In this document: positions 4,108 to 38,572 of the stretch, one piece after another
Layout: the number at the start of each line of letters is the position of its first letter
Numbering within the stretch: the first letter of the stretch is position 1
Assembly: GCA_018267315.1 (NCBI GenBank)
Contig: JAFDYS010000035.1
Location: 1 to 64,000 of the forward strand
Length of the DNA: 64,000 nt
Direction: 5' to 3'
Source: Bacteroidota bacterium
GTDB taxonomy: Bacteria > Bacteroidota > Bacteroidia > Chitinophagales > UBA10324
The notes under the pieces: generated by a model
Seen by the model: the letters and a program-made list of their open reading frames with translations, nothing else
The model's database searches: none
What the model was told of the DNA's origin: nothing
Made by a program: the position numbers and the translations under genes

Positions 4108-4213
4108 GAGTGGAAGTATTTTGCCCGAAAAGTTCCGGTCAAATATCGCAAACAGTTTTGCTGTAAGACATCGCGAATAATCACTCCCCGAATCTATACT
4201 TTTATCTCCCTGC

Positions 4214-4221
4214 TATTTTTG
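4214..4221 (+). promoter_or_regulatory. Possible Bacteroidota -7 promoter box (amidase)
   Basis: TATTTTTG matches the Bacteroidota -7 consensus TAnnTTTG and lies 15 bp upstream of the amidase ATG. No clear TTTG -33 box is seen at the usual 19-21 bp distance, so this is only a candidate. Confidence 0.35.
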
Positions 4222-4236
4222 TACAAACTCTCCATT

Positions 4237-5856
4237 ATGAAAACCCGAACAAAAAAAATTCTTAAGTGGACCGGAATAATTTTCGGAAGCATCATTGTGA
4301 TCATTATTGCGCTCGGTGCTTATATCTTTTCCATCATTCCCAAACCGCTGGGAAAAATTCCGGAGTTGCAGCATGAGTTGTTTACCAAACCTGCATCACC
4401 GTCACCCGTCACTGATTCCTTACTCTACAAATCAGCCACCGAACTGGCTGCCATGATCCGCAATCACCAGGCCACCTCGGCTGAGATCGTTACCACTTAC
4501 ATCAACAACATCAAAAACAACAACTATAAATACAATGCACTCGTGTGGTTGTTTGAAGCGGATGCACTGCGCGAGGCGCGCCGCTGCGATTCATTACTGG
4601 CGGACGGAACCATTCTTGGTCCGCTGCACGGCGTGCCCATGACGGTGAAGGAAGTGTATTTCATCAAAGGAAAATACAGCACCCTCAATGCGAAAGAAAT
4701 CGGTGGGTTCATGCCGGACTACAATCAAAAGATCGTTGAGCAGTTGAAGAAGTCCGGTGCCGTAATCATCGGTACCACCAATGTTCCCTACATGTTGCTC
4801 GACTATCAAACGTATGGTGACATCTATCCGCCTGCCAGCAATCCATACGACACCTCCTGTACGCCCGGAGGCAGCACCGGTGGTGGAGCCGCGGCTCTTG
4901 CCGCGGGTTTCACACCGCTTGAAGTGGGAAGTGATATGGGTGGAAGTGTTCGTTGCCCGTCTGCCTTCTGCGGATTGTACGGGCTTAAAACAACAGAGAA
5001 AGCGCTTGATCTGTGGGATATGGAATACCCCGGAATGAAATCCGAAATGAAGTATGCTTCACTCGCTGTATGTGGTCCGCTGGCGCGGAATCCTGAGGAC
5101 CTGGAGTTACTATGGAATGTGCTGCGCCAGACTCCAAATGCCGTGCTGCCTCCGTTCAGTTATGATTTTGATACGGCTAAATCATTGAATCAATATCGGG
5201 TGGCCTGGAACGATAAATGGGTTTTCGGCAATGATTCACTGCGTGCATCAGCGGACATCCGCGAAAAGCTTACGGCACTTATTGATTCACTTCAGCACCA
5301 TGGGGTAACCACTGAAAAAACTTCACCTCAAACGTATGAGAAGAACCTGCAGCTCTTCTTTGCAGAACTGTGTGCGTTGCAGTCCAGCAGCCAGCCGTGG
5401 ATTATCCGCCAACTGATGATGCCTTCGTTCAAAAAACTGGATGACGGGAAAATCGACAAACATCTGGCGTGGCAACTCATGAGCACCATGAGCCCGGCCT
5501 TATGGGATTCAACCCTGGCGCTGAAAAAATCACTCGTTACCGAGTGGGATCACTTCCTCACCGATCACGATTTCTTCATCTGTCCTGTGATGCTCACCGA
5601 TGCTTTCAAGAAATGCGAACGCGGCACATCGTTAATGGTGGATGGTCAGGAAATTTTTTACTGGAACAATGGCGCCTTCTGTCTTTCATTCAATGCGCTG
5701 GGTTACCCTTCCATAGTGATTCCTCTCGGCCTCGATAAAGAAGGACTTCCCGTGGGCGTGCAGGTGGTGGGTAAATATTTTTCAGAACCGAAACTCATTG
5801 CCTTTGCAAAACAACTGGAGGGAATAACACCCGGTTTCATCAAGCCGAAAAGCTAA
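4237..5856 (+). CDS. Membrane-anchored amidase signature family enzyme
   Basis: A 539-aa amidase-family hydrolase, expected to cleave C-N amide bonds; the substrate cannot be told from sequence. The Ser-cisSer-Lys triad is visible: Lys in PMTVKEV, the glycine-rich GGSTGGG loop (GGSTGG in place of the commoner GGSSGG), and the nucleophile Ser in GSDMGGSVRCP. The long open frame extends far upstream, but ATG 4237 begins a basic, hydrophobic anchor (ILKWTGIIFGSIIVIIIALG) and follows a plausible promoter box, so it is chosen. The anchor suggests periplasmic display. The cytochrome c gene follows after 67 bp and starts with a very similar anchor, so the two may be coexpressed. Fatty-acid-amide or peptide-amide activity are alternatives. 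Confidence 0.88.
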   Translation: MKTRTKKILKWTGIIFGSIIVIIIALGAYIFSIIPKPLGKIPELQHELFTKPASPSPVTDSLLYKSATELAAMIRNHQATSAEIVTTYINNIKNNNYKYNALVWLFEADALREARRCDSLLADGTILGPLHGVPMTVKEVYFIKGKYSTLNAKEIGGFMPDYNQKIVEQLKKSGAVIIGTTNVPYMLLDYQTYGDIYPPASNPYDTSCTPGGSTGGGAAALAAGFTPLEVGSDMGGSVRCPSAFCGLYGLKTTEKALDLWDMEYPGMKSEMKYASLAVCGPLARNPEDLELLWNVLRQTPNAVLPPFSYDFDTAKSLNQYRVAWNDKWVFGNDSLRASADIREKLTALIDSLQHHGVTTEKTSPQTYEKNLQLFFAELCALQSSSQPWIIRQLMMPSFKKLDDGKIDKHLAWQLMSTMSPALWDSTLALKKSLVTEWDHFLTDHDFFICPVMLTDAFKKCERGTSLMVDGQEIFYWNNGAFCLSFNALGYPSIVIPLGLDKEGLPVGVQVVGKYFSEPKLIAFAKQLEGITPGFIKPKS

Positions 5857-5923
5857 AGGAACTCGGCGCCTGTTGCACAGAATCACACGACTGCTTACTT
5901 TTCGTTCAACAAACCTCTCCGCA

Positions 5924-6928
5924 ATGAAGACTTTTCTCAAAATCCTGAAGTGGATCGGCATCCTGCTGCTGATCGCAGTGCTCGGCATATTCATCTCCGG
6001 TTACGTGCTGTACAACAAGAAATACACGGCACCATACCCTGACATTCGGGCCTCGACAGACAGCGCCGTGATTGCACATGGCAAGCATCTCGTTTACTAC
6101 AGTGCGCATTGTGTGGATTGCCATTTTAAGCCCGGTGACTCGCTGGGTGCGGTGAATGGAGAAGAGGTGGGATTGGCCGGCGGAGCATTTCCATTTGTAT
6201 TTCCCGGAGGAAAATTTTATTCAGCCAATATTTCAAGCGATCCCGAATTCGGAATCGGTAATATTCCTGATTCCGCGCTGGCCCGCGCATTTCGTTATGG
6301 GGTGAAACCCGATGGCAGCGTTCTTGCTCCGTTTATGGAAATGCAAAACCTGAGTGATGAAGATCTCACGGCCATCATCTCATTCCTGAGAACCCTGCCT
6401 CCGGTGAAGTACAAGGTTCCCGATAATGAATTGAATCTTTTGGGAAAAGCGATCATGGCCTTCTTCATTCGTCCTGAAGGACCTAAAGGCACGCCACCGA
6501 AGGAAATGAAACCCGACACTACTGTAGCTTACGGCGAATACCTGGTGACGGTGGTGAGCAACTGCAAGGGATGCCATACTTACCGTAATCCGAATACGGG
6601 AGCGTATGAAGGAGAACTACTCGCCGGCGGTCCCTTTGAGCCGGTGCATGGCGATCCTACCAAAATGATTGTAACACCCAACCTCACTCCCGATCCGGAA
6701 ACGGGTCACATCTATCACTGGGACTACAACCAGTTCAGGACACGGTTTACCCAGGGAGTTTTAGTAAAAGAAACGGTGATGCCCTGGGGTTCTTTCAAAC
6801 ATCTTGACAGCATTGAAGTAAAGGCCATCTGGAAGTACCTGCACACCGTACCGCCGGTGCACAAAGTGTGCAGCCCGCCGGTTCAGGATATCAAGGATTG
6901 GGATAAGGTCGCTAAAGGCGAATCGTAG
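5924..6928 (+). CDS. Membrane-anchored diheme cytochrome c
   Basis: A 334-aa c-type cytochrome anchored by an N-terminal segment (ILKWIGILLLIAVLGIFI). Two heme-binding CxxCH motifs are present: CVDCH at residues 63-67 and CKGCH near residue 213, each opening a cytochrome c fold, with Met-containing stretches that could supply the second axial ligand. An upstream in-frame TTG exists, but the ATG at 5924 gives the better N-terminus. Such proteins carry electrons in the periplasm, often for alcohol/sugar dehydrogenases or terminal oxidases; no partner dehydrogenase is adjacent. It converges with the response-regulator gene with a one-base gap. Confidence 0.88.
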   Translation: MKTFLKILKWIGILLLIAVLGIFISGYVLYNKKYTAPYPDIRASTDSAVIAHGKHLVYYSAHCVDCHFKPGDSLGAVNGEEVGLAGGAFPFVFPGGKFYSANISSDPEFGIGNIPDSALARAFRYGVKPDGSVLAPFMEMQNLSDEDLTAIISFLRTLPPVKYKVPDNELNLLGKAIMAFFIRPEGPKGTPPKEMKPDTTVAYGEYLVTVVSNCKGCHTYRNPNTGAYEGELLAGGPFEPVHGDPTKMIVTPNLTPDPETGHIYHWDYNQFRTRFTQGVLVKETVMPWGSFKHLDSIEVKAIWKYLHTVPPVHKVCSPPVQDIKDWDKVAKGES

Positions 6929-14031: not shown

Positions 14032-14077
14032 CGTCCTCGTCTGTGACGAGGATGCCATTGTTCAGCATTTGCAATGC
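14032..14077. repeat. Two-hairpin palindromic module 1
   Basis: Hairpin one (14035-14051) has arms CCTCGTC/GACGAGG around a TGT loop. After 13 bp, hairpin two (14065-14077) has arms GCATT/AATGC around TGC. A C-run precedes the module. The same design (hairpin, 13-bp spacer starting ATG, hairpin) recurs at 15358 and 15669. It lies immediately upstream of the first RAYT gene. Confidence 0.75.
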
Positions 14078-14115
14078 GAATTGGACTGTTAACTTTGATA
14101 GATACTCATCTTACG

Positions 14116-14670
14116 GTGTCCGGCGACAGATACACAATAACTGATCAACAAGGCATTTATTTTCTCACGTTTACAGTAGTTGACTGGCTGAACGTTTTCA
14201 CCCGCAGAAGTTACAAGGATACAATTGTTGATTCGCTGAATTACTGTATTGCTCAAAAAGGATTGATTGTTTACAATTGGTGTCTGATGAGTAATCATCT
14301 GCACCTGATTGCATCTGCAAAGGAAGATGCAAAACTTTCTGACATCATTCGTGATTTTAAAAAATTCACGGCAAAGAAGATCATTGAGCAAATACAACAG
14401 GAAGGCGAAAGCAGAAAAGAATGGTTGCTGAAACATTTCGAATACGCAGGGAAGTATGATAAACGAATTAAGCAATACAAGTTTTGGAGAGAAGATAATC
14501 ATGCCCTCTACTTACATCCAACTGAAACAAAAATAATCGACCAAAAAGTTGACTATATCCACAACAATCCAGTTGTGGAAGGAATTGTTGAATCACCTGA
14601 AGAATATCTGTATAGTTCGGCAATAGATTATGCCGGGGAAAAAGGATTGGTGAATATTGTTAGAATGTGA
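14116..14670 (+). CDS. REP-associated Y1 (RAYT/IS200-like) transposase 1
   Basis: A Y1 (HUH) single-strand transposase of the REP-associated type. The metal-binding HLH is in SNHLHLI, the nucleophilic Tyr in DYIHNNPV, and the C-terminal signature is SSAIDYAGEKG. The frame opens at ATG 14074 inside a palindromic repeat, but those first 14 residues have no counterpart in the two sister proteins. GTG 14116 gives 185 aa, close to the 182 aa of the others, so I prefer it with moderate confidence. RAYTs are usually domesticated single genes that mobilise or maintain short palindromes. Palindromes with TGT/TGC loops lie upstream and an ACA-loop one lies downstream. Confidence 0.85.
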   Translation: MSGDRYTITDQQGIYFLTFTVVDWLNVFTRRSYKDTIVDSLNYCIAQKGLIVYNWCLMSNHLHLIASAKEDAKLSDIIRDFKKFTAKKIIEQIQQEGESRKEWLLKHFEYAGKYDKRIKQYKFWREDNHALYLHPTETKIIDQKVDYIHNNPVVEGIVESPEEYLYSSAIDYAGEKGLVNIVRM

Positions 14671-14795: not shown

Positions 14796-15344
14796 ATGGG
14801 ATTCAAATATAAAGCGGATAATCCTGAAGGCATTTACTTCACAACATCTACCATCGTTCAGTGGATTGATTTGTTCACCCGAAAAGAATTACAGGAGGTT
14901 GTCATTGATTCGCTCAATTACTGCCAGCAGGCAAAAGGACTAATAATCTTCGCATGGAGCCTGATGCCAAGTCACCTTCATCTTATTGCTGCTGCAAAAG
15001 GCAAGAATTCCTTATCAGATATTATGAGAGACTTCAAGAAACACACTTCAAAAAAATTGGTGAAGACTATTGAAGAAATTAATGAGAGCAGAAGCAGTTG
15101 GCTCATGAGCGCGTTTGAATTTGCAGGCAGGCCTGATCGTAAAATCAAAGACTTTAAAGTTTGGCAAGATGGTTTTCATCCTGAAGAATTGATTACAAAT
15201 CGATTCATAGATCAGAAGCTGGATTACGTACATAATAATGCGGTTGTGGCAGGATTTGTAAATGAACCTCATCATTATGCATTGAGTTCGGCGATTGACT
15301 ATGCAGGTGGCAAAGGAATAGTTGATATAACCTTTTTAGAATGA
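14796..15344 (+). CDS. REP-associated Y1 transposase 2
   Basis: A 182-aa RAYT of the same subfamily as the genes at 14116 and 57150. HLH lies in PSHLHLI, the nucleophilic Tyr in LDYVHNNAV, and the family ending is SSAIDYAGGKG. The open frame begins at a TTG inside the upstream repeat, but ATG 14796 (MGFKYKADNPEG) aligns with the start of the 57150 protein and gives the same length. TGT/TGC-loop hairpins lie upstream and ACA/GCA-loop hairpins downstream, an inverted arrangement expected of a RAYT with cognate repeats. There are no canonical IS ends or target duplications. Confidence 0.88.
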   Translation: MGFKYKADNPEGIYFTTSTIVQWIDLFTRKELQEVVIDSLNYCQQAKGLIIFAWSLMPSHLHLIAAAKGKNSLSDIMRDFKKHTSKKLVKTIEEINESRSSWLMSAFEFAGRPDRKIKDFKVWQDGFHPEELITNRFIDQKLDYVHNNAVVAGFVNEPHHYALSSAIDYAGGKGIVDITFLE

Positions 15345-23759: not shown

Positions 23760-25691
23760 TTATCCCGGCAACCCGTACTTCATTCGCGTTTGTTTGATGT
23801 GTTCATTTTGAAACAGTCCAATACCGGCAAAACTCCCATAGAGTTGCAAGGCAAAGAGGGAACGGGCGGCAATGGCTTCATCAAAAAGTTTTCTGAACCG
23901 CTCTTCCTCTCCACAGGCCAGGCACACGATGGAAAGAAGCATTCCCGTTTCGGGATCGGGTGAAGCGGCATAAAATGCTTCGAACTTCTGAAGTATTTCG
24001 CGCAGCTTCTCCCCGTTCGCCTGTATGCTGTAAACAAAAGTGAGCCCGAGCAACACATAAGGGTGATCGCCGGCCAGTTTGTGATTTCCCTCAATGATGC
24101 GGGCAGCGGTTTCAATATCACCTTCGCCGAGACTTACATAGGCGATCATTTGCTTGGCCAGGAAGTTATTCGGATTCAACTCCAGTGAACGGTTGAGATA
24201 CGTTTGTGCCATCGTGAAGTCGGTCAGCCCCAGCAACGCTCTGCCCGCTTCGGCAAGCGTTCTTGGATTCATGGGGTCCACGTCCACCATGCGCTGCGCC
24301 ATCACCTTCGTTTGATCAAACTGAAGCATCAGGTTGTAGTACTCGCACAGCCAGAAATAAGTGAGCGGTTCGCTGGGATTAATTGATATGGCCTGTTGCA
24401 GCAAATCAAAAGCTCCCTGCCAATCCCACTGGTTGAACTTCATCATAGCCATGGCAGTAAGGGCTTTGGGGTTGCGCGGTTGTGCGCGCATGGCTTCCTG
24501 AGCGTGATAAGCAAATCGTTTCTTCGATTCCTGGGGAGATATGTCGGGAACCAATCCGGGAAAAACATAAATGTTTGCCAGCACGGCATGCGCATTGGCA
24601 AAGTCAGGATCCATCTCCACGGCTTCATGAAGTAATTGGATCGCCTGTGCTTTCACTTCCGGGTTGATATTGTCCCAGTCGTAAGCGCCTTTGAGATACT
24701 TCTTGTATGCTTCGAGATTCTGGGTGGGGGCTTCGGCAATTTCTGAAGTGTGTTGCTGTTCGCTCAGATTTGTTCTCAGCTTGTTGGCAATGGCGCGAGC
24801 AATTTCATCCTGCACATCAAAAATATCTTCGAGCATTCTGTCGTACGTCGCACTCCAAAAGTGATAACCATCGGCGGCATTGATCAACTGCGCCGTCACG
24901 CGGATTTTATTTCCCGCTTTGCGCACGCTGCCTTCAATCACTTTCTGCACGTTGAGTTTGGCCGCAATCTCCCGCACATCTTCATTCTTCCCTTTAAAAG
25001 CGAATGCCGAAGTACGCGAGGTCACCTGCAGGCCATCAACTTGTGCGAGCACATTGATGAGTTCTTCCGTCATGCCGTCGCAGAAGAATTCATTTTCCGG
25101 ATCAGAACTCAATGAAGCGAAAGGAAGCACCGCAATTCCGTTGAGCGTAGTTTTCGTTTTGCCTTTCAGATCTTCTCTCGAAGGAATCACCAGCCCGGGA
25201 TTGGTGATGGCATACACCTGCATCGGCTGCTTCACATTTTTCAGTTCGAAATAGCCGAGGGCTTTGGTGGAAATGCCTTCCGTGTTCTTCACTTCATCAA
25301 AGAGTTTTTCTGAAATGAAAACACCGCCGGGCGTGGCCAGTGATTCAATGCGCGAAGCCACGTTCACGCTGTCGCCATAGATACCGTTTTCATCCGTCAT
25401 CACATCGCCGGTGTGGATGCCAATGCGCACATCAATTTTGGGTTCGGAAAGAAACTGCGTCTGCATTTCAATGGCAGCACGCACGGCACTGAGTCCACTG
25501 GTGAACAAACTCATGGTTCCGTCGCCATAGTACTGCAGCAACTTGCCATCGTATTTGGCCAGTGCATCTTCGAAAATTTTTTTCGAACGGTCGCGCTTCT
25601 GAATGGCCAGCGTTTCATTCTGCTGCATCAAGGCGGTGTAACCGACCATATCGGTGAACATGATGGCTGCGAGTTGGCGGGTCGTTCCCAT
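23760..25691 (-). CDS. Class III cyclase domain + TolB-like domain + TPRs (paralogue B)
   Basis: A 643-aa paralogue of the 1355 gene. The catalytic domain has metal Asp14 and Asp57 and Asn110/Arg114, with Gln53 at the Lys position and Gly103 at the partner position. The TolB-like domain spans ~180-305 (IAVLPFASLSSDPENEFF), and TPRs run from ~320 to ~620. It is the last of three tandem copies transcribed leftwards. A 28-codon mini-ORF ends immediately before its ATG (stop TAA at 25692-25694, start at 25691), so its translation may be coupled. This copy and the 1355 copy share long runs with each other (for example the whole TolB-like domain), showing recent duplication or gene conversion. Confidence 0.87.
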   Translation of the reverse strand: MGTTRQLAAIMFTDMVGYTALMQQNETLAIQKRDRSKKIFEDALAKYDGKLLQYYGDGTMSLFTSGLSAVRAAIEMQTQFLSEPKIDVRIGIHTGDVMTDENGIYGDSVNVASRIESLATPGGVFISEKLFDEVKNTEGISTKALGYFELKNVKQPMQVYAITNPGLVIPSREDLKGKTKTTLNGIAVLPFASLSSDPENEFFCDGMTEELINVLAQVDGLQVTSRTSAFAFKGKNEDVREIAAKLNVQKVIEGSVRKAGNKIRVTAQLINAADGYHFWSATYDRMLEDIFDVQDEIARAIANKLRTNLSEQQHTSEIAEAPTQNLEAYKKYLKGAYDWDNINPEVKAQAIQLLHEAVEMDPDFANAHAVLANIYVFPGLVPDISPQESKKRFAYHAQEAMRAQPRNPKALTAMAMMKFNQWDWQGAFDLLQQAISINPSEPLTYFWLCEYYNLMLQFDQTKVMAQRMVDVDPMNPRTLAEAGRALLGLTDFTMAQTYLNRSLELNPNNFLAKQMIAYVSLGEGDIETAARIIEGNHKLAGDHPYVLLGLTFVYSIQANGEKLREILQKFEAFYAASPDPETGMLLSIVCLACGEEERFRKLFDEAIAARSLFALQLYGSFAGIGLFQNEHIKQTRMKYGLPG

Positions 25692-25778
25692 TTATGCAAG
25701 AAGTGTTAATTCAGTGAACCCGCCTTCGTTCCTCCGGCGGATAAGCATGATGGCGGCGAGCTGACGGGTGACGGACAT
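25692..25778 (-). CDS. 28-codon leader ORF resembling a modified cyclase N-terminus
   Basis: The frame starts with ATG 25778 and reads MSVTRQLAAIM, the same as the cyclase start (MGTTRQLAAIM). Nine codons (LIRRRNEGG) follow, then FTE, where the cyclase has FTD, and a short divergent tail to a TAA that directly abuts the downstream ATG. A second leader with the same plan is at 29761-29880. It may be a coupled leader peptide or a duplication scar. Confidence 0.5.
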   Translation of the reverse strand: MSVTRQLAAIMLIRRRNEGGFTELTLLA

Positions 25779-25848
25779 GGCTGAAAGTTACAAGATGAAC
25801 AATGGGGAAGTAACAATTTCTATCAGCTAAAAAAATCCTTAATATCTA

Positions 25849-27816
25849 CTAGCCGGCTTGGGAATCGGCGTTCCTGATCTGGTCGCCTTTCACCGGCAGT
25901 CCCAGTTTCCTCCTTGATTCCTGCACGTGGTTATCAAACCAGGCATCTCGCATAAATTCACTGTCATACGTCTGCAACAGGTACAGTGATTTCTTCTGCA
26001 TGCCTTCATCGTAGTATGTATAAAATTTTCCCATTTCACCGGCCAGTAAGGCACAGAGAGCCAATACAAATTCCAGGTTTGACGACGACTTCTCATTGTG
26101 CATTCTTTCAAACTTTTCCAAAAACTCCCTGGCCTTGTCTGTTTCTCCCCGGCGGTTTCGTACATAAGCCAGGGCCAGCAACACAAACGGCAAATCGCCG
26201 GCTAACCCGCGGCTATCCTCCGCCATCTGCAACGCCTGATCGTATTCACCTTTCTGGGTTAGTGCCAGTACTTTGGCGTTGCGTGAAACGAGACTGAGTG
26301 AATCTACCTGAAGGGCGGTATCTGCTGCTCTCATCGCTTCATCAACATGCCCGAGAAATGCATAGTACCGGGCTGCCTGACCCACGGTAACAGCAGAAAG
26401 CGGATCCAGCCGCAGCATCAGCCCGGCATCTTCCAATATGGATTCCTCCTCCATGAAAATAATGTTGTATTCGCAAAAAAGATGCAGCACCTGTGGATTG
26501 TTCGGGTTCAGTTGCCTGGCCTTTTTCATGAGCAACCGGCACTCATCAAATTCCCAGGCATGCAGCTTGAGCATGCTGATGGCCGTCAGCGCATTTGTAT
26601 TCTGCGGATCGAGTTCCATTGCCCGCGCCGCATACGTGCGCGCTCTTTCCATGGACTCAGCCACCGGCGCCTGTCCCGATTGAGCAAAGAAGGAGTGAAT
26701 GTATGAAAGCAGGGCCCAGGCATCGGCCATGCCGGCATCCAACTCCGTCACTTCCTGAAGCAGTTCAATGGCGCGTTTCCGGTCTTCCAGCGAGGTGCGG
26801 TTGAAGAACTGCACGGCCTGCAGGTACTTTTTGTATGCTTCGAGATTTTGTGTGGAAGCTTTTGCCAGTTGTGACGTATGCTGTGCGGCATTCAGATTCT
26901 CGCGCATCTTGTTGGCGATGGCTCTTGCAATATCATCCTGCACGGCGAAGATGTCTTCAAGGGAACGATCATACGTCTCACTCCAGAGGTGATAGCCGTC
27001 CGCTGCATTGATGAGCTGGGCGGTGATGCGCACCTTGTTGCCTGCTTTGCGCACGCTGCCCTCCAGTATTTTCTGCACGTTCAGTTTGGCGGCGATCTCC
27101 CTCACATCTTCGTTCTTTCCTTTGAAGGCGAAAGAAGAGGTCCGTGATGTGACCTGCAGTCCGTCCACTTTCGCCAGCACATTCAGCAACTCTTCGGTGA
27201 TGCCATCGCAGAAAAATTCATTTTCCGGATCAGAACTGAGTGATGAAAAAGGCAGCACGGCAATCGAATTCAGCGTCTGCTTCACCTTGCCCTTCACTTC
27301 TTCCCTTGACGGAACCACGATGCCCGGGGCAGAAACCGCATACACATTCACCGGTTGCAACACATTCTTCAACTCAAAATAGCCGAGCGGTTTTGCCTCT
27401 ATGCTTTGGTTGCGGATTTCTTCATGCAGCTTTTCGGAGATGAACACCGCGCCCGGCGTGGCCAGCGACTCGATGCGTGATGCGATATTCACACTGTCGC
27501 CGTAAATTCCGGTTTCATCAAACATCACATCGCCGAGGTGCATGCCGATGCGCATGTCAATCACTTCGCTCTGCCGGTTGAGGGTTTGAATCTCAATCGC
27601 ACACCGTACGGCTTCCAGCGCACTGGTGAAAATGCTGAGCGAGCCATCGCCGTAGTTCATCAGCAACTTGCCCTGATGTGCCGAAAGACTGTTTTCAAAA
27701 ATCCTGTAGCTTCTGTCTTTTACCTGCTTGGCGAGTGTTTCATTCTGCTGCATCAATGCCGTATAGCCCACCATATCGGTGAACATGATCGCAGCGAGTT
27801 GACGGGTGGCGGGCAT
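25849..27816 (-). CDS. Class III cyclase domain + TolB-like domain + TPRs (paralogue C)
   Basis: A 655-aa middle member of the tandem array. Metal Asp14 and Asp57 and Asn110/Arg114 are present, with Met53 in the Lys position (LLMNYGDG) and Gly103 at the partner site. The TolB-like domain spans ~185-305 and TPRs ~320-630. The upstream gene ends only 15 bp before its ATG, so it is probably cotranscribed with paralogue D, and unlike B and D it has no leader ORF. The TPR region differs much more among the copies than the catalytic and TolB-like parts, suggesting different partners. Confidence 0.87.
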   Translation of the reverse strand: MPATRQLAAIMFTDMVGYTALMQQNETLAKQVKDRSYRIFENSLSAHQGKLLMNYGDGSLSIFTSALEAVRCAIEIQTLNRQSEVIDMRIGMHLGDVMFDETGIYGDSVNIASRIESLATPGAVFISEKLHEEIRNQSIEAKPLGYFELKNVLQPVNVYAVSAPGIVVPSREEVKGKVKQTLNSIAVLPFSSLSSDPENEFFCDGITEELLNVLAKVDGLQVTSRTSSFAFKGKNEDVREIAAKLNVQKILEGSVRKAGNKVRITAQLINAADGYHLWSETYDRSLEDIFAVQDDIARAIANKMRENLNAAQHTSQLAKASTQNLEAYKKYLQAVQFFNRTSLEDRKRAIELLQEVTELDAGMADAWALLSYIHSFFAQSGQAPVAESMERARTYAARAMELDPQNTNALTAISMLKLHAWEFDECRLLMKKARQLNPNNPQVLHLFCEYNIIFMEEESILEDAGLMLRLDPLSAVTVGQAARYYAFLGHVDEAMRAADTALQVDSLSLVSRNAKVLALTQKGEYDQALQMAEDSRGLAGDLPFVLLALAYVRNRRGETDKAREFLEKFERMHNEKSSSNLEFVLALCALLAGEMGKFYTYYDEGMQKKSLYLLQTYDSEFMRDAWFDNHVQESRRKLGLPVKGDQIRNADSQAG

Positions 27817-27831
27817 TTGCGAGAATTCAAT

Positions 27832-29760
27832 TCAAAGATTCATTTTCTTTTTCGCTTCACCATACCGGGGATCGGATCTCAATCCCTCATACACCGGAGA
27901 GCTGATCATGTAAGGTATCATTTCTTCACGCTTATCAATTGACTTGAAAAGATATTCGAAACACTTTTCATTGTCACCGATACCATGCCACGCCAGACAG
28001 AGATCTGAGTATTTGGCTACCTCAGGATGCAGGCGCTGAAATTCTTCGAGCTGCTTCATCAGGCCCACGGCTTCTTCCTTCTTTCCAAGTTTCCCCGTGC
28101 CATAAACAAGATACGATAATGATAGCGCAGAACCGCCAGACATTTCATTGGATTGCTTAATTACCTGATACGCCTCGTTCCAGTTTCCCTTCAGGCCAAT
28201 CGAAAATCCTTTGATGGCAAGCGCATACCAGTTGCCGGGTGTTACTTCAAGTTGCATGTCTGACAGGCGTATCACATCATCATACCGTTCTTCATAAAAA
28301 TAGGCGATACCCAGCGAGCGCGCCACTGACATGGATAGGGGATCTTGCTGCCAGGCCTTTTCAAAAGCCATCACTGAATTTTCGGGCTCGTTTATGATCA
28401 GGTAATAATAGCCGAGTACCCAATAGGCCTCTGCTGCTCCGGGGTTGAGTTCCATAGCCCTCATCAACGAGCGGTAAGCATCCTGCCATTTCCATTCAAA
28501 GAACAAGTAGGCAATGCTGCGTGCCACATGAGCCTGGGCGAGGGACGGATCCAATTCGAGCGCGCGGTTGCTGTACTCCACCACGCGCGCATACGCTTCA
28601 GGTCCCGGTATGGCGCCCACACTTCCCAGCATGGCATAAATACCGGCCAACATCGGAAGCGGCAATGCGAAATGAGGATCAAGGGCGATGGCTTGTTCAT
28701 AACATTCAATCGCCCGGTACATTTCTTCCGGCGTCTCTTTGTTCTGAAAGAATTTTCCTTTCAGAAATAGCGAATAGGCCTCAAGATTCAGCGTGCCGGT
28801 TTTCACGAGTGGTTCATTCTTCTGTGATAGGAAGAGTTTTGCCCGCAATTTATTTGCGATGATCCTGCTGATTTCATCCTGTACCTCAAAAATGTCAGTG
28901 AGGTCGCGGTCATACGTTTCGCTCCAGATATGAAAGCCGTCAGCGGCATTGATCAGCTGCGCGGTGATGCGCACTCGGTTACCGGCCCGCCGCACGCTAC
29001 CTTCAAGAATCTTATCGACGTTTAAACGAGAAGCGATGTCACGAATGTCCTGTTGCTTGCCTTTGAATGCAAATGAGGATGTGCGTGACGTGACCCGTAA
29101 ACCTTCCACCGCCGTAAGTGCATTCAATAATTCTTCAGTGATTCCGTCGCTGAAATATTCATTGTCCGCTTCACCACTGAGGTTAGTGAAGGGAAGCACG
29201 GCCAGCGAATTGACGGGCTGTTTCGTTTTACCCTCTATCTCGTGGCGTGACGGAACAGCCAATCCTTCATTCGCAATGGCGAAAACGCGGAGGGGTTGTT
29301 GCACATTTTTCACTTCAAAAAATCCGACCTCGTGCGTGAGAATGTTTTTCTGGTTGCGGATGTCGTCATACACTTTTTCAGAAATGAAAATGCCGCCGGG
29401 AACAGCCAACGTTTCAATGCGCGAAGCCACATTCACCCCATCGCCGTAGATACCGCTTTCATCAAACACCACATCGCCGCTATGAATGCCGATGCGCAAT
29501 TCCACCCGTGGTGACTTCATCAGTTCCTGCTGAATGCTGATGGCGCAGTTCACTGAATCGAGCGTTGAGTTGAAAATGCTCAGTGTACCGTCTCCGTAGT
29601 ATTGCAAAATGCGCCCGTGAAACTGCTCTACGAATTTGTCAAAGGCCTGCTTGTGCCGCAATTGATTGGCGCGCGCCAGCGCCTCATCAGTTTGCATGAG
29701 TGCGGTGTAACCCACCATATCGGTGAACATGATTGCGGCGAGTTGCCTGGTCGTTCCCAT
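27832..29760 (-). CDS. Class III cyclase domain + TolB-like domain + TPRs (paralogue D)
   Basis: A 642-aa first gene of the tandem array. Metal Asp14 and Asp57 and Asn110/Arg114 are intact, with Gln53 at the Lys position (ILQYYGDG) and Gly103 at the partner site. The TolB-like domain (LAVLPFTNLSGEADNEYFSDG) is the most diverged of the four, and the TPRs carry clear repeats (ALPLPMLAGIYAMLG, AEAYWVLGYYYL). A 39-codon leader ORF ends with TAG directly before this ATG. Divergent from the nine-GAF hybrid kinase across ~0.4 kb, so shared regulation is possible. Confidence 0.87.
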   Translation of the reverse strand: MGTTRQLAAIMFTDMVGYTALMQTDEALARANQLRHKQAFDKFVEQFHGRILQYYGDGTLSIFNSTLDSVNCAISIQQELMKSPRVELRIGIHSGDVVFDESGIYGDGVNVASRIETLAVPGGIFISEKVYDDIRNQKNILTHEVGFFEVKNVQQPLRVFAIANEGLAVPSRHEIEGKTKQPVNSLAVLPFTNLSGEADNEYFSDGITEELLNALTAVEGLRVTSRTSSFAFKGKQQDIRDIASRLNVDKILEGSVRRAGNRVRITAQLINAADGFHIWSETYDRDLTDIFEVQDEISRIIANKLRAKLFLSQKNEPLVKTGTLNLEAYSLFLKGKFFQNKETPEEMYRAIECYEQAIALDPHFALPLPMLAGIYAMLGSVGAIPGPEAYARVVEYSNRALELDPSLAQAHVARSIAYLFFEWKWQDAYRSLMRAMELNPGAAEAYWVLGYYYLIINEPENSVMAFEKAWQQDPLSMSVARSLGIAYFYEERYDDVIRLSDMQLEVTPGNWYALAIKGFSIGLKGNWNEAYQVIKQSNEMSGGSALSLSYLVYGTGKLGKKEEAVGLMKQLEEFQRLHPEVAKYSDLCLAWHGIGDNEKCFEYLFKSIDKREEMIPYMISSPVYEGLRSDPRYGEAKKKMNL

Positions 29761-29880
29761 CTAATAAAGAAATGCTTTTTCGGTGAACCCGCCTTCGTTC
29801 CACCAATGGGCAGTCATGATGCCAGCAAATTGCCTGGTGATCAGTAGCGGTTCGATGATGCAAAGAAAAGAAAGCGCCAT
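29761..29880 (-). CDS. 39-codon leader ORF, second copy of the modified cyclase N-terminus
   Basis: The frame starts at ATG 29880. Residues 14-20 read ITRQFAG, then IM, nine codons (TAHWWNEGG), FTE, a short tail and TAG at 29761-29763, directly abutting the ATG of paralogue D. The nine-codon insert is in the same place and of the same length as in the leader at 25692-25778 and shares its last four residues and 16 of its last 17 bases. That argues for common descent rather than chance. Confidence 0.5.
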   Translation of the reverse strand: MALSFLCIIEPLLITRQFAGIMTAHWWNEGGFTEKAFLY

Positions 29881-30176: not shown

Positions 30177-33100
30177 ATGACTGAAGAAGCCGCACGAATA
30201 GCAGAACTCGAAAAACTTTTGGCCAAACAAACGGCGCTGTTAAATCATCGCGACGAAGAATTGGCTGTGATCAAGAGTGTGCAGGAGGCCCTTGTAAGGG
30301 AAATGGATATGCAGAGCATTTATGAACTGGTGGGCGAAAAAATCAGGGAAATATTCAGCGCGCAGGTTATTGATATCGTAACATATGACAAGAAGGCCAA
30401 TTTGCTTCACGACAAATACGCTTACGAAAAAGGAGACCGGACCCTGGTAGGAACCTGGGAACCTACCGGGTTCAGAAAACATGTTGCTGAAACCGGCCAA
30501 CTCCTCGTCATCAATAAAAATCTTGAAAAGAAAGCGGCTGAATTCAATAGCAAATTATTGAGTGGTGAAATGCCTAAATCGGCTGTTTTTGTGCCGCTCA
30601 TTTCCGGAACGGCAGTAAAAGGAATGATCAGTCTGCAGAACCTGGATCACGAAGATGCCTTCCCGGATTCTGATGTAAACCTGCTCGTCACACTTGCCAA
30701 CAGCATGACTGTCGCGCTGGAAAGCGCGCGGCGCTTCGATGAAACCAACCGCCTGCTGAAAGAAACCGAGCAGCGCAACGCCGAGCTCGCCGTAATCAAC
30801 AGCGTGCAGGAAAGTCTGGTGGCGCGAATGAATATTGAAGGGATCTATGAACTGGTTGGTGAAAAAATCAGGGAGATTTTTGATGCGCAGGTGATTGACA
30901 TCGTGATGTACGACAAGAGCGTCAACCTGATCACCGACCGGTATTCCTACGAAAAAGGTGACCGCACCTTACTGGGACCCCGCGAGCCGAAAGGATTCCG
31001 GCGGCACGTGATTGAAACCGGTCAGTTGCTTGTGCATAATGAAAACGTGGCGCAGGCCATACGGGACTTCAATAACGAAGTGCTCATCGGGGCCGCCCCC
31101 AAGTCGCAGGTATATGTGCCCATGATTGCCGGCGGAGAGGTGAAGGGAGTGATCAGCTTGCAGAATCTCGATCACGAGCACGCATTCTCACCTTCCGATG
31201 TGAACCTGATTACCACGCTGGCAAACAGCATGAGCGTGGCTTTGGAAAGCGCCCGCCTCTTTGACGAAACGAGTCGCCTGCTGAAGGAAACGGAACAGCG
31301 AAATGCCGAGCTGGCGGTGATCAACAGCGTACAGGAAAGCCTGGTGGCTAAGAGAGACATGCAGGGGATTTATGAACTGGTGGGAGAAAAGATCCGTGAA
31401 ATTTTTGACGCACAGGTCATTGATATCGTCACCTTCGACAAGCGCTCCAATCTCATCAGAGATGTTTATGCCAATGAGAAAGGCGACCGGACCCTCCTCG
31501 GGCCACGTGAACCGAAAGGATTCAGGAAGCATGTAATCCACACGCGACAGGTACTCCTGCACAATGAAAACGTCGAGCGCGCCATGCGTGAATTCGGCAA
31601 TGAAATTCTCATAGGGGAAAGCCCCAAATCTCAGGTGTACGTTCCACTGATTGCCGGCAATGAAGTAAAGGGAATCATCAGCCTTCAGAATCTGGATCAT
31701 GAGCATGCCTTCTCCGAATCGCACGTGAGTCTGCTCACCACGTTGGCAAACAGCATGAGTGTAGCGCTGGAAAGCGCCCGCCTTTTTGATGAAACAAATC
31801 GCCTGCTCAAAGAAACCGAGCAGCGAACAGCCGAACTGTCAGTGATAAACAGCGTACAGGAAGGGCTGGCGAAAGAACTCGACATCCAGGGCATTTATGA
31901 ATTGGTGGGAGAAAAGATGCGACAGATTTTCAACGCACAGGTGATTGACATCGTTACCTATGATAAAACCACCAATCTCATTGAGGATCGTTATACCTAC
32001 GAGAAAGGTGACCGCGCCTTGCTGGCTCCCCGCCCGCTGAAAGGATTCCGCAAGCATGTGATTGAAACGGGAAAAACACTCGTCATTAACCGGGATCTTG
32101 ATTCTCAAAGAGCCAAATACGACCAGTCCGTTATTGTAGGTAAGGGCGCAAAATCACTGGTGATGGTTCCCATGATCGCGGGTGGTGAGGCAACAGGTGT
32201 TATCAGTCTGCAGAACCTCGATCAGGAGCATGCTTTCCCTGATTCCGATGTGAACCTTCTCACCACGCTTGCAAACAGCATGAGTGTGGCGCTTCAAAAT
32301 GCAAGACTGTTTGATGAAACCACCCGGCTGCTGAAAGAAACCGAACAGCGCACAGCAGAGCTGGCGGTCATTAACAGCGTGCAGGAAGGGCTGGCAAAAG
32401 AACTCGATATGCAGGCCATCTACGATCTCGTGGGAAACAAGATCAGAGATGTATTCAGCGCGCAGGTTGTCATCATTGCTGACCTTAACCAGGATACCAA
32501 AACGGAACATTTCAAGTACCTCATCGAAAAAGGAGAGCGTTATTACCTGGAGCCCCGGCCTTATGACAAACTGAGGCAACACCTGATTGACACGAGGGAG
32601 AAAATTCTGATCAGCTCCGATTTCACACGGGCAGCGGAAGAATTTGGCATGAAGGTGCTGCCCGGAACAGAGCTTCCAAAATCACTGCTGTTCGTTCCGC
32701 TGATTTCAGGAGAGAAAGTGAAAAGTTATGTGAGTCTTCAGAACGTTGATAACGAGCACGCATTTAACGAGTCCGACGTTCGGTTGCTGGAAACCCTGGC
32801 AAACAGCATGAGCGTGGCGCTGGAGAATGCACGGTTGTTTGATGAAACGACACGACTGCTCAAAGAAACGGAGCAACGCACCGCGGAACTTGCCGTCATC
32901 AACAGTGTGCAGGAAGGACTGGCGAAAGAGTTGCACATTGATGCCATCTACAATCTTGTAGGCGAGAAGCTGAGCGAAGTCATGAATACGCTCGACATTG
33001 ACATCCGGATTTTCTCTCCTGATACCAATCAGACCTTCTATCCTTTCATGATCGATCACGGCGTCCGGATGCAGATTCCACCCCAGCCCATGGGCGGTAT

Positions 33101-36100
33101 TGCGAAGCACGTTTATGAGACGGGAAAGACGCTGCTGATTAATGAAAAATTGGCCGAGCGCATGGCTGAACTCGGGTCGCAGCTGATACCCGGGACGCAG
33201 ATGGAAAAATCATATCTCGCCGTTCCGATCATGGCGGGTGCAGAGGTGATGGGCATGGTGAGCATCAGCAATTATCTCGAAGAGCATGCCTTCACTGATG
33301 CCGAAGTGCGGCTGCTGCAGACGGTGGTATCGGCCATGAGCGTAGCACTGAAGAATGCAAAGCTCTTTGATGAAACGAACCGGTTGCTGAAGGAAACAGA
33401 AGAGCGCAACGCAGAACTTGCCGTAATCACCAGCGTGCAGCAGGGTCTGGCATCCAAGCTCGAGTTTCAGTCCATCATTGATTTGATCGGCGATAAAGTG
33501 ACGGAGATTTTCAACGCGCAGGCCACGTTGATTTCACTATACGATCCATCCACCCGGGAAATCAACCACCGTTACCTGAAAGAGCGCGGGCAAAGATTGT
33601 TCGTCAATAAACCGGTTAGGATTGACCGCTTCCGGCAGCGCGTCGTGGAAACCCGTCAACCGTGGCTCATCAATCAGAATTACCGGCAGATCGCCATGAA
33701 GTTGGGTGAAGAAACGGTGCTGGAAGGCGAAGAGCCCAAGTCGCTGCTGTTTGTTCCCATGATTGTGGGTGATGAAGTAACCGGTACCATCAGTCTTCAG
33801 AATCTCGATATTGAAGACGCCTTCAGCCCTGCCGACGTGCGGCTGCTGCAAACGATTGCCAACAGCATGAGCGTGGCCCTGGAGAATGCGCGCTTGTTTG
33901 ACGAAACCCAGCGGCTGCTGAAAGAAACAGAACAGCGCTCGTCAGAACTGTCAGTCATCAACAGCGTGCAGGAAGGCCTCGTGCGGGAGATGGACATGCA
34001 GGCCATCTACAATCTGGTGGGCAACCGCATTTACCAGTTGTTCGACACACAGTCCGTAGTGATCCGCACGTTTGATTACGAATCAGGAAATGAACACTGG
34101 CGCTATGCCATTGAAAAAGGAGAACGCATTTATATTGAACCGCGGCCGTTAATCTGGGCCAATAAGCGACTCATTGAAACCAAACAGCCCGTGGTCATCA
34201 ATGAAAATTATCTGGAGACAGCGAAGAAATACGGAGGCACCGGCGTGAGCAAGGGGCTGCCACCTAAGTCGGCCATGTTCGTCCCCATGATTGTGGGCGA
34301 CATGGTCAAGGGTTCGGTGAGTTTGCAGAACGTGGATCGTGAAAATGCCTTTACCGAATCAGACCTCCGCCTGCTTACCACGTTGGCCAACAGCATGAGC
34401 GTGGCGCTGGAAAACGCCCGCCTCTTTGATGAAACCTCTCACCTGCTCGCTGAAGCCAAACAGCGCGCATCGGAATTGGGCACAGTAAACAATATCAGCA
34501 GAGCACTTGCTTCACAACTCGATCCGGACGAACTGATAGAGATTGTAGGCGATCAGCTGAAAGAGTTGTTCAATGCCAACATCGTCTATCTCGCCCTACT
34601 TAACAAGAAAACCAACATGATTCATTTCCCTTACCAGTATGGTGATGACAACATTCCCATGAAATTAGGTGAGGGACTCACTTCCCGGATCATTCTAAGC
34701 AAAGAACCACTTCTCATTAATAAAGATGTGCAGGAAATGCGGGCTAAGCTGGGCGTACAAAAAATGGGAGTGCCCGCGGCTTCCTACCTCGGTGTGCCCA
34801 TTCCGGTGGGCGATGAAATCATCGGTGTACTCAGCGTGCAGAGTACGGAAGAGGAAAACAAATTCAACGAAAATGATCTGCGGTTGCTGACGACCATCGC
34901 ATCCTCAGTAGGCGTGGCGCTGAGCAATGCGCGGCTCTTCGAAGAGGCCCAGAAATCAAAGATGGAAGCAGAAGCAGCGAGCAAAGCGGCCGAAAAAGCG
35001 AATGAAGCCAAGAGTGCATTCCTTTCCACCGTTAGCCATGAGCTGAGAACGCCGCTCACCTCGGTGCTTGGCTTCACCAAAATCATCAGGAAAAGGTTGG
35101 ATGATAAAATCTTTCCTGCCGTGAGTCAGAGTGATCCCAAAATTGTAAAAGTGATCAGCCAGATTTCTGAAAACCTCAACGTGGTGATTTCAGAAGGCGA
35201 GCGCCTGACCAACCTGATCAACGATGTGCTCGATCTCGCAAAAATTGAAGCAGGCAAAATGGAGTGGAATCTCGAAAGCGTTTCCATCAATGAAATTGCC
35301 GAGCGCGCCCTGGCAGCCACCACTGCATTGTTTGAGCAGAAACACTTAAAGCTGATCCGCCATATTGATGCTGATCTGCCGAACATTTCCGGCGACCGCG
35401 ACAAACTCATACAGGTGATCATCAACCTTATTTCCAATGCGGTGAAGTTTACTGACAAGGGATCAGTCACCTGCCGGGTTACCCGTGAAAAGAATGAACT
35501 CGTGGTAAGTGTGTCCGACACCGGAATCGGCATTGCACCCGAAGATTACGCAGCCGTGTTTGAACAATTCAAGCAGGTGGGCACTGATACATTGACCGAC
35601 AAACCCAAAGGGACGGGGCTCGGGCTTCCGATCTGCAAAGAAATCGTAGAACATCACGGCGGACGCATCTGGCTGCAAAGTGAAGTGGGCAAAGGCAGCA
35701 CGTTTTCATTTGCCTTGCCGATTGAAAAATCAGCGGCGCGGCCCGTGCATCTCGATCAGCTGCTAAGTCAGCTGAAAGAACAGGTTGCGTTTTCGAAACT
35801 GAATCTGAAAGGCAAGGAAGCCACCATCCTCATCGTGGATGACGATGACTCCATCCGCTCTCTGTTGTATCAGGAACTCAGCGATGCCGGCTACCTGATT
35901 GAACAGGCCGCAAACGGAAAAGAAGCGTTGGCCCGCGTGAGAGCCAATCGGCCCGATCTCATCATTCTCGACGTGATGATGCCCGAGATGAATGGTTTTG
36001 ATGTGGCGGCCGTGCTGAAGAATGATCCGCAAACCATGGACATTCCCATCATCGTATTGTCTATCGTGCAGGATCGCGCGCGCGGGTTTCGGATCGGGGT

Positions 36101-36419
36101 GGACCGCTATCTCACCAAGCCCATTGACACAGGCGTGCTCTTCTCCGAAATCGGCAGCTTGCTGGAGCAGGGTAAATCGAAAAAAAAGGTGATGATTGTA
36201 GATCAGGACTCAGGCACGGTGAGCACGCTTACTGAAGTGCTCAAAACCAAAGGATATGTAGTGATGGAATCAGACGGCAAAGAGCTCGTTGAAAAAGCGA
36301 TTGCCAACCAGCCGGATATCATCATCATCAACTCTGTCCTGAGCGGTAAGCAGGATATTGTTCAAACCCTGCGCTTTGAAAAAGGATTGGAGAATGTTGT
36401 ATTTCTGGTTTATCAATAG
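30177..36419 (+). CDS. Giant hybrid histidine kinase with nine tandem GAF domains
   Basis: A 2080-aa soluble kinase without transmembrane segments. After a short coiled coil there are nine GAF modules at a period of ~175 aa (523-532 bp), each opening with a version of AVINSVQEGL and closing with LANSMSVALENARLFDET. The ninth is the most diverged. Next are HisKA (phospho-His in STVSHELRTPLTS, ~1621), HATPase_c (NLISNAVKF, DTGIGIAPED, GTGLGLPICKE), a receiver domain (Asp in LIILDVMMPEMNG, ~1932), and a short second receiver in which the acceptor Asp is Asn (IIIINSVLSG). A TTG at 30156 is the alternative start. A CheY-like gene follows by 27 bp and a GAF-cyclase gene after that. GAF ligands are unknown. 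Confidence 0.92.
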   Translation: MTEEAARIAELEKLLAKQTALLNHRDEELAVIKSVQEALVREMDMQSIYELVGEKIREIFSAQVIDIVTYDKKANLLHDKYAYEKGDRTLVGTWEPTGFRKHVAETGQLLVINKNLEKKAAEFNSKLLSGEMPKSAVFVPLISGTAVKGMISLQNLDHEDAFPDSDVNLLVTLANSMTVALESARRFDETNRLLKETEQRNAELAVINSVQESLVARMNIEGIYELVGEKIREIFDAQVIDIVMYDKSVNLITDRYSYEKGDRTLLGPREPKGFRRHVIETGQLLVHNENVAQAIRDFNNEVLIGAAPKSQVYVPMIAGGEVKGVISLQNLDHEHAFSPSDVNLITTLANSMSVALESARLFDETSRLLKETEQRNAELAVINSVQESLVAKRDMQGIYELVGEKIREIFDAQVIDIVTFDKRSNLIRDVYANEKGDRTLLGPREPKGFRKHVIHTRQVLLHNENVERAMREFGNEILIGESPKSQVYVPLIAGNEVKGIISLQNLDHEHAFSESHVSLLTTLANSMSVALESARLFDETNRLLKETEQRTAELSVINSVQEGLAKELDIQGIYELVGEKMRQIFNAQVIDIVTYDKTTNLIEDRYTYEKGDRALLAPRPLKGFRKHVIETGKTLVINRDLDSQRAKYDQSVIVGKGAKSLVMVPMIAGGEATGVISLQNLDQEHAFPDSDVNLLTTLANSMSVALQNARLFDETTRLLKETEQRTAELAVINSVQEGLAKELDMQAIYDLVGNKIRDVFSAQVVIIADLNQDTKTEHFKYLIEKGERYYLEPRPYDKLRQHLIDTREKILISSDFTRAAEEFGMKVLPGTELPKSLLFVPLISGEKVKSYVSLQNVDNEHAFNESDVRLLETLANSMSVALENARLFDETTRLLKETEQRTAELAVINSVQEGLAKELHIDAIYNLVGEKLSEVMNTLDIDIRIFSPDTNQTFYPFMIDHGVRMQIPPQPMGGIAKHVYETGKTLLINEKLAERMAELGSQLIPGTQMEKSYLAVPIMAGAEVMGMVSISNYLEEHAFTDAEVRLLQTVVSAMSVALKNAKLFDETNRLLKETEERNAELAVITSVQQGLASKLEFQSIIDLIGDKVTEIFNAQATLISLYDPSTREINHRYLKERGQRLFVNKPVRIDRFRQRVVETRQPWLINQNYRQIAMKLGEETVLEGEEPKSLLFVPMIVGDEVTGTISLQNLDIEDAFSPADVRLLQTIANSMSVALENARLFDETQRLLKETEQRSSELSVINSVQEGLVREMDMQAIYNLVGNRIYQLFDTQSVVIRTFDYESGNEHWRYAIEKGERIYIEPRPLIWANKRLIETKQPVVINENYLETAKKYGGTGVSKGLPPKSAMFVPMIVGDMVKGSVSLQNVDRENAFTESDLRLLTTLANSMSVALENARLFDETSHLLAEAKQRASELGTVNNISRALASQLDPDELIEIVGDQLKELFNANIVYLALLNKKTNMIHFPYQYGDDNIPMKLGEGLTSRIILSKEPLLINKDVQEMRAKLGVQKMGVPAASYLGVPIPVGDEIIGVLSVQSTEEENKFNENDLRLLTTIASSVGVALSNARLFEEAQKSKMEAEAASKAAEKANEAKSAFLSTVSHELRTPLTSVLGFTKIIRKRLDDKIFPAVSQSDPKIVKVISQISENLNVVISEGERLTNLINDVLDLAKIEAGKMEWNLESVSINEIAERALAATTALFEQKHLKLIRHIDADLPNISGDRDKLIQVIINLISNAVKFTDKGSVTCRVTREKNELVVSVSDTGIGIAPEDYAAVFEQFKQVGTDTLTDKPKGTGLGLPICKEIVEHHGGRIWLQSEVGKGSTFSFALPIEKSAARPVHLDQLLSQLKEQVAFSKLNLKGKEATILIVDDDDSIRSLLYQELSDAGYLIEQAANGKEALARVRANRPDLIILDVMMPEMNGFDVAAVLKNDPQTMDIPIIVLSIVQDRARGFRIGVDRYLTKPIDTGVLFSEIGSLLEQGKSKKKVMIVDQDSGTVSTLTEVLKTKGYVVMESDGKELVEKAIANQPDIIIINSVLSGKQDIVQTLRFEKGLENVVFLVYQ

Positions 36420-36446: not shown

Positions 36447-36827
36447 ATGGATAAGAAGATTCTGATCGTAGATGATGAGGCGCACATCCGCATGCTGATA
36501 GAGCAAACGCTGGAAGAACTGGAAGACGAAGGCGTGGAATTTCTGACGGCTGACAACGGTGCATCTGCGCTGGAAATCATTCAGGAAGAAAAACCCAGTC
36601 TCGTTTTTCTCGATGTGATGATGCCCAAGATGAATGGCATGGATGTTTGCCAGAAAGTGAAAAAAGAACTGAGCATGCAGGAAGTGTTCATCATTCTGCT
36701 CACCGCTAAAGGACAGGAACTCGACCGGCAGCGCGGGCAGGAAGTGGGAGCCGATGTTTACATGACCAAACCGTTTGATCCGGAAGTATTGCTGCAAAAG
36801 GCACGTCAGGTACTGGGTATTGCCTGA
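36447..36827 (+). CDS. CheY-like single-domain response regulator
   Basis: A 126-aa stand-alone receiver domain: KILIVDDEAHIRML, phospho-Asp in LVFLDVMMPKMNG, Thr in ILLTAKG and Lys in YMTKPFDP. With no output domain, it would pass phosphate or act by protein contact. It lies 27 bp after the nine-GAF kinase and ~65 bp before the GAF-cyclase gene on the same strand, so it is the natural relay between them. Confidence 0.92.
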   Translation: MDKKILIVDDEAHIRMLIEQTLEELEDEGVEFLTADNGASALEIIQEEKPSLVFLDVMMPKMNGMDVCQKVKKELSMQEVFIILLTAKGQELDRQRGQEVGADVYMTKPFDPEVLLQKARQVLGIA

Positions 36828-36892
36828 TCATGGTTCCGGTTGGGCTGCATCAATGATTCCATCTGTACGCAATTCAACAAGAGATTGTCCGC

Positions 36893-38572
36893 ATGTCACA
36901 AGCCACATTAAAGTCACTGTTCGGAAAACGCAGCGAGGTATCTGTATGGCTGCAATCGCTGATGCATGCTATGAACATGGAAATTTGTGTAGAGGACGAT
37001 CAGCACCGGGTTTTGTTCGGTACGTCAGCTGCATCACTGCAGACCACTGAGCCGGTTATACTGGCGGGCGAAGTGGTGGGCTGGGTAAAAGGTGAGCGCC
37101 ATGCAGCCCTCGTGGCACAGTGGCTTTCCATCATGATTCAAAAAGAAGCCGAAAAGAAAAAACTCGGAACGGAAGTATTGGGCATGTACCAGGAACTGAA
37201 TGTCATTTTCAATTTTTCGGAAAAGCTGGCCGAAACAATCGATCCGGATGTGATCGCCAAGATCACGCTGGAACAGGCCATGCATTCCATTCCGTCGCAC
37301 AGCGGCGTCATCGTGCTGTGGAATGCGGAAAGCAATCAACTTATGATTCCTGCTGCTTCCGGTGAACCGCTGTTTAATGAAACTGTGCTTCGCGCCAATG
37401 CGGGACTATTGCTCAAGATCGGGCTAAGCGGCAATTCAGAAATCATGAATGACCTCTCACCGCTGAAGAAGAATGAGATCATCAACGAAGAGGTGCAATC
37501 GGTCATTTACGCAGCCATGAAAGTGAAACACCGCATTATGGGCGCCGTGATTCTTGCCCGAAGAAAAGCCGAGCAGTATACGGCCGCCCATTTGAAGCTG
37601 CTGGTCACACTCGCACTGCAATCTTCCTCCGCCATTGAGAGCGCCCTGCTCTATGAAAAGAATATCCGCGAAGTGCGGGAACGGGAAGAAGCCATTCTCC
37701 GCATTCATGAGGTCACCCAAAAATTCGTTCCGCATGAGTTCATTCATTCCCTTGGCAAAGAAGTGCTCACGGAAGTGAAGCTCGGCGATCAGGTGGAAAA
37801 AATTGTGACCGTGCTGTTTTCTGACATCCGGAATTACACCACGCTCTCTGAAAGCATGACGCCTGAAGAAAATTTCAGCTTCGTTTCTTCATTCAATGAA
37901 CGCATGGGGCCCATCATCCGAAAGCACAACGGATTCATCAACCAATATCTCGGTGATGCCATCATGGCCATTTTTCCGGATCAACCGGGCGATGGCTTGG
38001 CCGCCGCAGTGGAAATGCAGCATGCCGTGCAGGAATTCAATAAAGAACGTCAGCTGCGTCACCAGGCCTCCATACAAATTGGTGTGGGGGTGCACACGGG
38101 TCCGCTCATCATGGGCATCACCGGCGATGAAAAACGAATGGACGCCACCACCATTTCTGATACGGTGAACACGGCATCACGACTGGAAAGTCTCACCAAA
38201 TATTACAAGGCAAGCATCATCCTGAGTGATGAAACGCTGCGGCAAATTGATCGCAGTCCGGATTTTCGTATGCGCAGTTTGGGCAAGGTGCAGGTGAAAG
38301 GGAAACTGGCCCCTGTGGGAATTTACGAATGCTTCAGCGGCAATAAAGAAAGCGATGTGGCTAAAAAGGAAAAGACACTGACTGCATTTAATGAGGGCTT
38401 GTCGGCCTATCTCAGCAAATCGTTTTCCGATGCCATTAGGGCATTTAGCGAAGTCATTGCATTCCATCCTGAGGACCTCACTGCTAAATTCTTTATTGAA
38501 AAAGCCATCGCGTATATCGAGCACGGCGTTCCGGAAGAATGGGCCGGGGTGGAGGAAATGATATACAAGTAA
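36893..38572 (+). CDS. GAF-class III nucleotide cyclase
   Basis: A 559-aa soluble protein. Residues 1-85 are an unassigned sensory-like region, ~95-255 a GAF domain, a short coiled linker follows, then a cyclase catalytic domain at ~300-480 (metal Asp311 in FSDIRNYT and Asp355 in LGDAIM; Asn426/Arg430 in VNTASR). A C-terminal ~75 residues look TPR-like. The Lys position is Gln351, while the partner position is Thr419, as in many bacterial adenylate cyclases. It is third gene of the kinase/receiver/cyclase unit, so phosphorelay control of a cyclic nucleotide signal is likely if it is active. It converges with the membrane cyclase gene. Confidence 0.9.
   Translation: MSQATLKSLFGKRSEVSVWLQSLMHAMNMEICVEDDQHRVLFGTSAASLQTTEPVILAGEVVGWVKGERHAALVAQWLSIMIQKEAEKKKLGTEVLGMYQELNVIFNFSEKLAETIDPDVIAKITLEQAMHSIPSHSGVIVLWNAESNQLMIPAASGEPLFNETVLRANAGLLLKIGLSGNSEIMNDLSPLKKNEIINEEVQSVIYAAMKVKHRIMGAVILARRKAEQYTAAHLKLLVTLALQSSSAIESALLYEKNIREVREREEAILRIHEVTQKFVPHEFIHSLGKEVLTEVKLGDQVEKIVTVLFSDIRNYTTLSESMTPEENFSFVSSFNERMGPIIRKHNGFINQYLGDAIMAIFPDQPGDGLAAAVEMQHAVQEFNKERQLRHQASIQIGVGVHTGPLIMGITGDEKRMDATTISDTVNTASRLESLTKYYKASIILSDETLRQIDRSPDFRMRSLGKVQVKGKLAPVGIYECFSGNKESDVAKKEKTLTAFNEGLSAYLSKSFSDAIRAFSEVIAFHPEDLTAKFFIEKAIAYIEHGVPEEWAGVEEMIYK

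Follow-up and report, generated by a model that had tools for sequence, protein, structure and literature searches.

Two kinds of described system resemble the arrangement that we report here. In stop-start translational coupling and in leader peptides, a small ORF ends directly at the ATG of the next gene and is in frame with it. Gene conversion between bacterial paralogues has been described in M. tuberculosis, where interlocus conversion tracts have a median length of 101 bp (PMC13061034). In the 64-kb window, by which we mean the whole stretch of DNA analysed, two cyclase genes, C1 and C3, are each preceded by a leader mini-ORF that shares features with both systems. As in the M. tuberculosis conversions, a short tract of about 100 bp is found in two old paralogues and is absent from their orthologues. 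In contrast, the C1/C3 tract lies upstream and close to the start, holds an insertion and displaces the start codon; it is a single case, in which conversion is deduced from the sequence. As in leader peptides, the C1 and C3 small ORFs end at the next ATG and in frame, but the leader peptide and its position are not conserved across relatives, and no attenuator-like structure is found. The locus is probably a further example of a known process, in which paralogues copy from each other.

The genes C3, C2 and C1 form a head-to-tail series on the minus strand, and each encodes a class III cyclase catalytic domain (PF00211) with TPR repeats after it. C3 occupies positions 27832-29760 (642 aa, ATG at 29760), C2 positions 25849-27816 (655 aa, beginning 15 nt past the C3 stop) and C1 positions 23760-25691 (643 aa, ATG at 25691). 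A fourth cyclase, C4, is found near 3300-1355 and a fifth on a separate contig of the same genome. Among these five cyclases a leader mini-ORF is present only at C1 and C3, with none at C2, C4 or the fifth gene. The C1 leader (25692-25778, minus strand, 28 aa) translates as MSVTRQLAAIM-LIRRRNEGG-FTELTLLA and ends in a TAA that abuts the C1 ATG. Its TRQLAAIM copy lies at 25746-25769 and the insert LIRRRNEGG at 25719-25745, both on the minus strand. The C3 leader (29761-29880, minus strand, 39 aa) reads MALSFLCIIEPLLITRQFAGIM-TAHWWNEGG-FTEKAFLY and ends in a TAG against the C3 ATG, with the TRQFAGIM copy at 29815-29838 and the insert TAHWWNEGG at 29788-29814, again on the minus strand. Both leaders are in frame with their own cyclase, whose TRQ follows that of the leader at a period of 87 nt. 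The layout given in the first-pass annotation, namely TRQ(L/F)A(A/G)IM, nine codons ending in NEGG, then FTE and a stop directly against the ATG, agrees with the translations in every detail, as does its observation that both inserts are 27 nt long and share 16 of their last 17 bases.

The likeness of the two leaders is beyond chance. They align with a score of 52, where the maximum in 2000 dinucleotide shuffles was 31, and a BLAST search of the genome with one leader finds the other at E 1.2e-5, or at E 2.2e-9 with the cyclase start added to the query; with either leader, nothing besides the other was clearly above chance in the genome. The two are 69% identical over 78 nt, with 24 differences, and their homology starts with the TRQ copy. 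Ahead of that copy the C1 and C3 regions show no similarity (up1 vs up3, p 0.58). Within the leaders there is an identical run of 19 bases, third positions included, which exceeds the length expected from random placement (p 0.0065, a post hoc test on one pair) and hints at constraint or at a second conversion. The FTE of the leaders also resembles the FTD of the cyclases in frame: TTCACCGA, a match picked by eye and post hoc, agrees at 8 of 8 bases in C3 (p 0.0005) and at 7 of 8 in C1 (p 0.009), which is suggestive, and past those 8 bases the leaders are without similarity to the cyclase.

The leaders are confined to this lineage. Close cyclases were found in three of the 16 genomes of the family (this genome and two relatives, G003 and G004) and, at the cut-off used, in 12 of 395 genomes of the class, this one included. 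Of the 30 cyclase loci with a readable core, C1 and C3 alone have another TRQLAAIM-like stretch in the 400 nt upstream. When the class was searched for the leader pattern, the leaders of C1 and C3 were recovered along with a single additional site; in translation that site has no cyclase start preceded by a leader. In the gene tree C1 joins G3_C7 (100/100) and C3 joins G3_C4b (100/99), and neither of these direct orthologues in G003 has a leader. Since C1 and C3 each pair with their own G003 orthologue, they are older than the split from G003, and outside the tract the tree contradicts the sharing of the leader, as the orthologues of both genes are without it. The leader is then most simply younger than that split. 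Because the division of C1 from C3 predates the separation of the genera and the orthologues are leaderless, the leader most likely arose once and was later copied between the two genes. Inheritance from a common ancestor would require several separate losses, in G3_C7, G3_C4b, C2, C4 and G3_C4a, as well as the conservation of DNA that otherwise evolves freely; loss in G003 is nevertheless conceivable, because it is the only relative that carries both orthologues.

We consider it probable that a single recombination product, found at both genes, accounts for the two leaders and that it spread between C1 and C3 by gene conversion or unequal recombination. A segment made of a TRQLAAIM remnant, 54 nt with NEGG and the stop (here called X), and ATGGGAACG, which encodes MGT, may have arisen before one cyclase start and may then have been copied to the other gene by either of these routes, anchored in the TRQLAAIM homology of the near-identical coding start TRQLAAIMFTDMVGYT. 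The recombination would have placed X followed by ATGGGAACG behind the old start. The original start would thus have been pushed upstream in each gene to remain as a short dead ORF, and each cyclase would now begin at the new ATG of MGTTRQ. This agrees with the suggestion in the first-pass annotation of a repeated structural scar of duplication, which gains support in that no orthologue has a leader and the homology runs from TRQLAAIM copy to TRQLAAIM copy. The TRQLAAIM copy of the C1 leader is likely the displaced original start, a fit that concerns few bases: it matches the real start of G3_C7 at 22 of 24 nt, against 19 of 24 for the present start of C1.

The coding starts carry a further trace of the tract. 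C1 and C3 share 41% amino acid identity, with a codon identity of 0.44 at shared residues. They are more alike inside the tract, that is in the leader and codons 1-20, than in the rest: codons 1-20 are identical at 54 of 60 nt (90%) and codons 21-40 at 27 of 60 (45%), and codon identity in the coding part of the tract is 12/17 compared with 101/239 outside (p 0.04). This contrast is weak evidence by itself because strong conservation of the first codons is common to all the paralogues, and another C1/C3 segment reaches a codon identity of 0.70. C1 and C3 have the same MGT codons, ATGGGAACG, which none of the other five paralogues and orthologues compared shares. Other origins for the segment were considered. 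A simple local tandem duplication of X and the start was rejected, as X is not found a second time ahead of the leader TRQ (p 0.63 and 0.60). A remnant of an upstream cyclase deleted in frame was also rejected, given that the cyclase C-termini (KKKMNL, KLGLPV...) are unlike FTE(L/K)xxLx in a comparison by eye only. The native 5' region of C3 is a further candidate for X, with a weak similarity to the region upstream of G3_C4b (p 0.03, one of several comparisons).

The leaders are real, restricted to the lineage and probably a recombination scar without dedicated function. The functional reading, in which the mini-ORFs are translated and the ribosomes that terminate on them start again at the adjoining cyclase ATG, seems unlikely to us, even though the abutment is exact at both genes and no other of the 48 ORF starts of the window has one. 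The first-pass annotation took the abutment in both as a hint of coupling; the abutment itself stands, but since the leaders are homologous the pair amounts to a single inherited coincidence, expected at about 5% by chance, and not to two independent ones. Both frames are open and both stops are kept despite the 24 differences, yet frame and stop would survive neutral change with a chance of 17-30%. The codon changes in the insert (1 synonymous, 9 non-synonymous) are as under neutrality, so that no purifying selection on the insert peptide is seen. The main cyclase ATGs have no A at -3 or at -6 and might need help, but the leader ATGs also have poor start contexts, with G at -3. Adenines at -3 and -6 promote initiation in Flavobacterium johnsoniae, a relative within the Bacteroidota (PMC6847099). 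With A at -3 missing from both ATGs, the contexts give the leader no advantage, but they do not rule out its coupling to a main start that is weak. Conservation across relatives or coding selection, which support a coupled leader ORF without strictly defining one, were not found here, and C2 and C4 manage without a leader. It had been proposed that coupling would be refuted by mini-ORFs absent or out of frame in relatives, together with mutations that leave the cyclases unaffected; the search of related genomes finds the mini-ORFs absent. Our literature search turned up no account of a leader ORF in front of cyclases of this kind. An RNA attenuator was rejected, as the predicted fold of the leaders does not exceed that of shuffles (z 1.98 and 0.36). 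A broader proposal, that a lineage-specific control element born from a recombined coding start couples the translation of the two cyclases and was spread by conversion because it is useful, we regard as quite improbable.

The conserved block GGAACGAAGGCGGGTTCAC could also be a nucleic-acid signal common to both genes, such as an operator, an sRNA site or part of a promoter. We hold this to be very unlikely: the 19 identical bases with their third positions speak for it, but the run-length test is the post hoc one on a single pair given above, the fold lies within the shuffles, and no good match to a Bacteroidota-type promoter was seen. Two exact copies of the block GG(N)GGAACGAAGGCGG occur in the 3.6-Mb genome, and its near copies with up to 3 mismatches (54+64, against 79+97 for the reversed control pattern) show no excess. 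The same scarcity makes it scarcely credible that a dispersed REP/MITE-like repeat, mobilised for example by the IS200-like transposases of the window, was inserted in the cyclase starts. By eye, a CCGCC/GGCGG hairpin is possible in the C1 insert, but its arm is not retained in C3, and a REP-like repeat requires many copies, where only two are present. The 22-position pattern GAACGAAGGCGGGTTCACNGAA, with 21 bases specified, has a single match among the GTDB genome contigs of 84,980 species; it lies in an actinobacterium and is probably due to chance. Transposase relatives that could serve such a repeat are present in the window: IS200-like (Y1_Tnp) proteins of the small stand-alone type lie on the plus strand at 14074-14670 and, adjacent, 14796-15344, and a weaker one on the same strand at 57150-57698 scores just under the curated cut-off.

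If the leaders are best read as a copied scar, the locus is an example of paralogue copying that moves a start codon and leaves a short upstream ORF resembling a regulatory leader. It also warns that stop-start abutment alone is insufficient to infer coupling. Should the leader be functional, it would show how an upstream ORF can arise out of the coding start of the gene behind it.

Further observations concern the surroundings of the cyclases. The neighbours of C4 (region 1355-3274 and 3517-6928) resemble those of G3_C7 at its G003 locus (C7, L070), with a small MQHHES membrane protein and an MKT.LKILKW.GI gene common to both. As the tree pairs G3_C7 with C1, this likeness suggests rearrangement within the cyclase set. 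Divergent from C3, on the plus strand at 30177-36419, lies a gene for a 2080-aa sensor protein with putative near-repeat GAF-like units in large number, followed by putative histidine kinase and receiver domains. Downstream of it are a response regulator and a GAF-cyclase (36447-38572).
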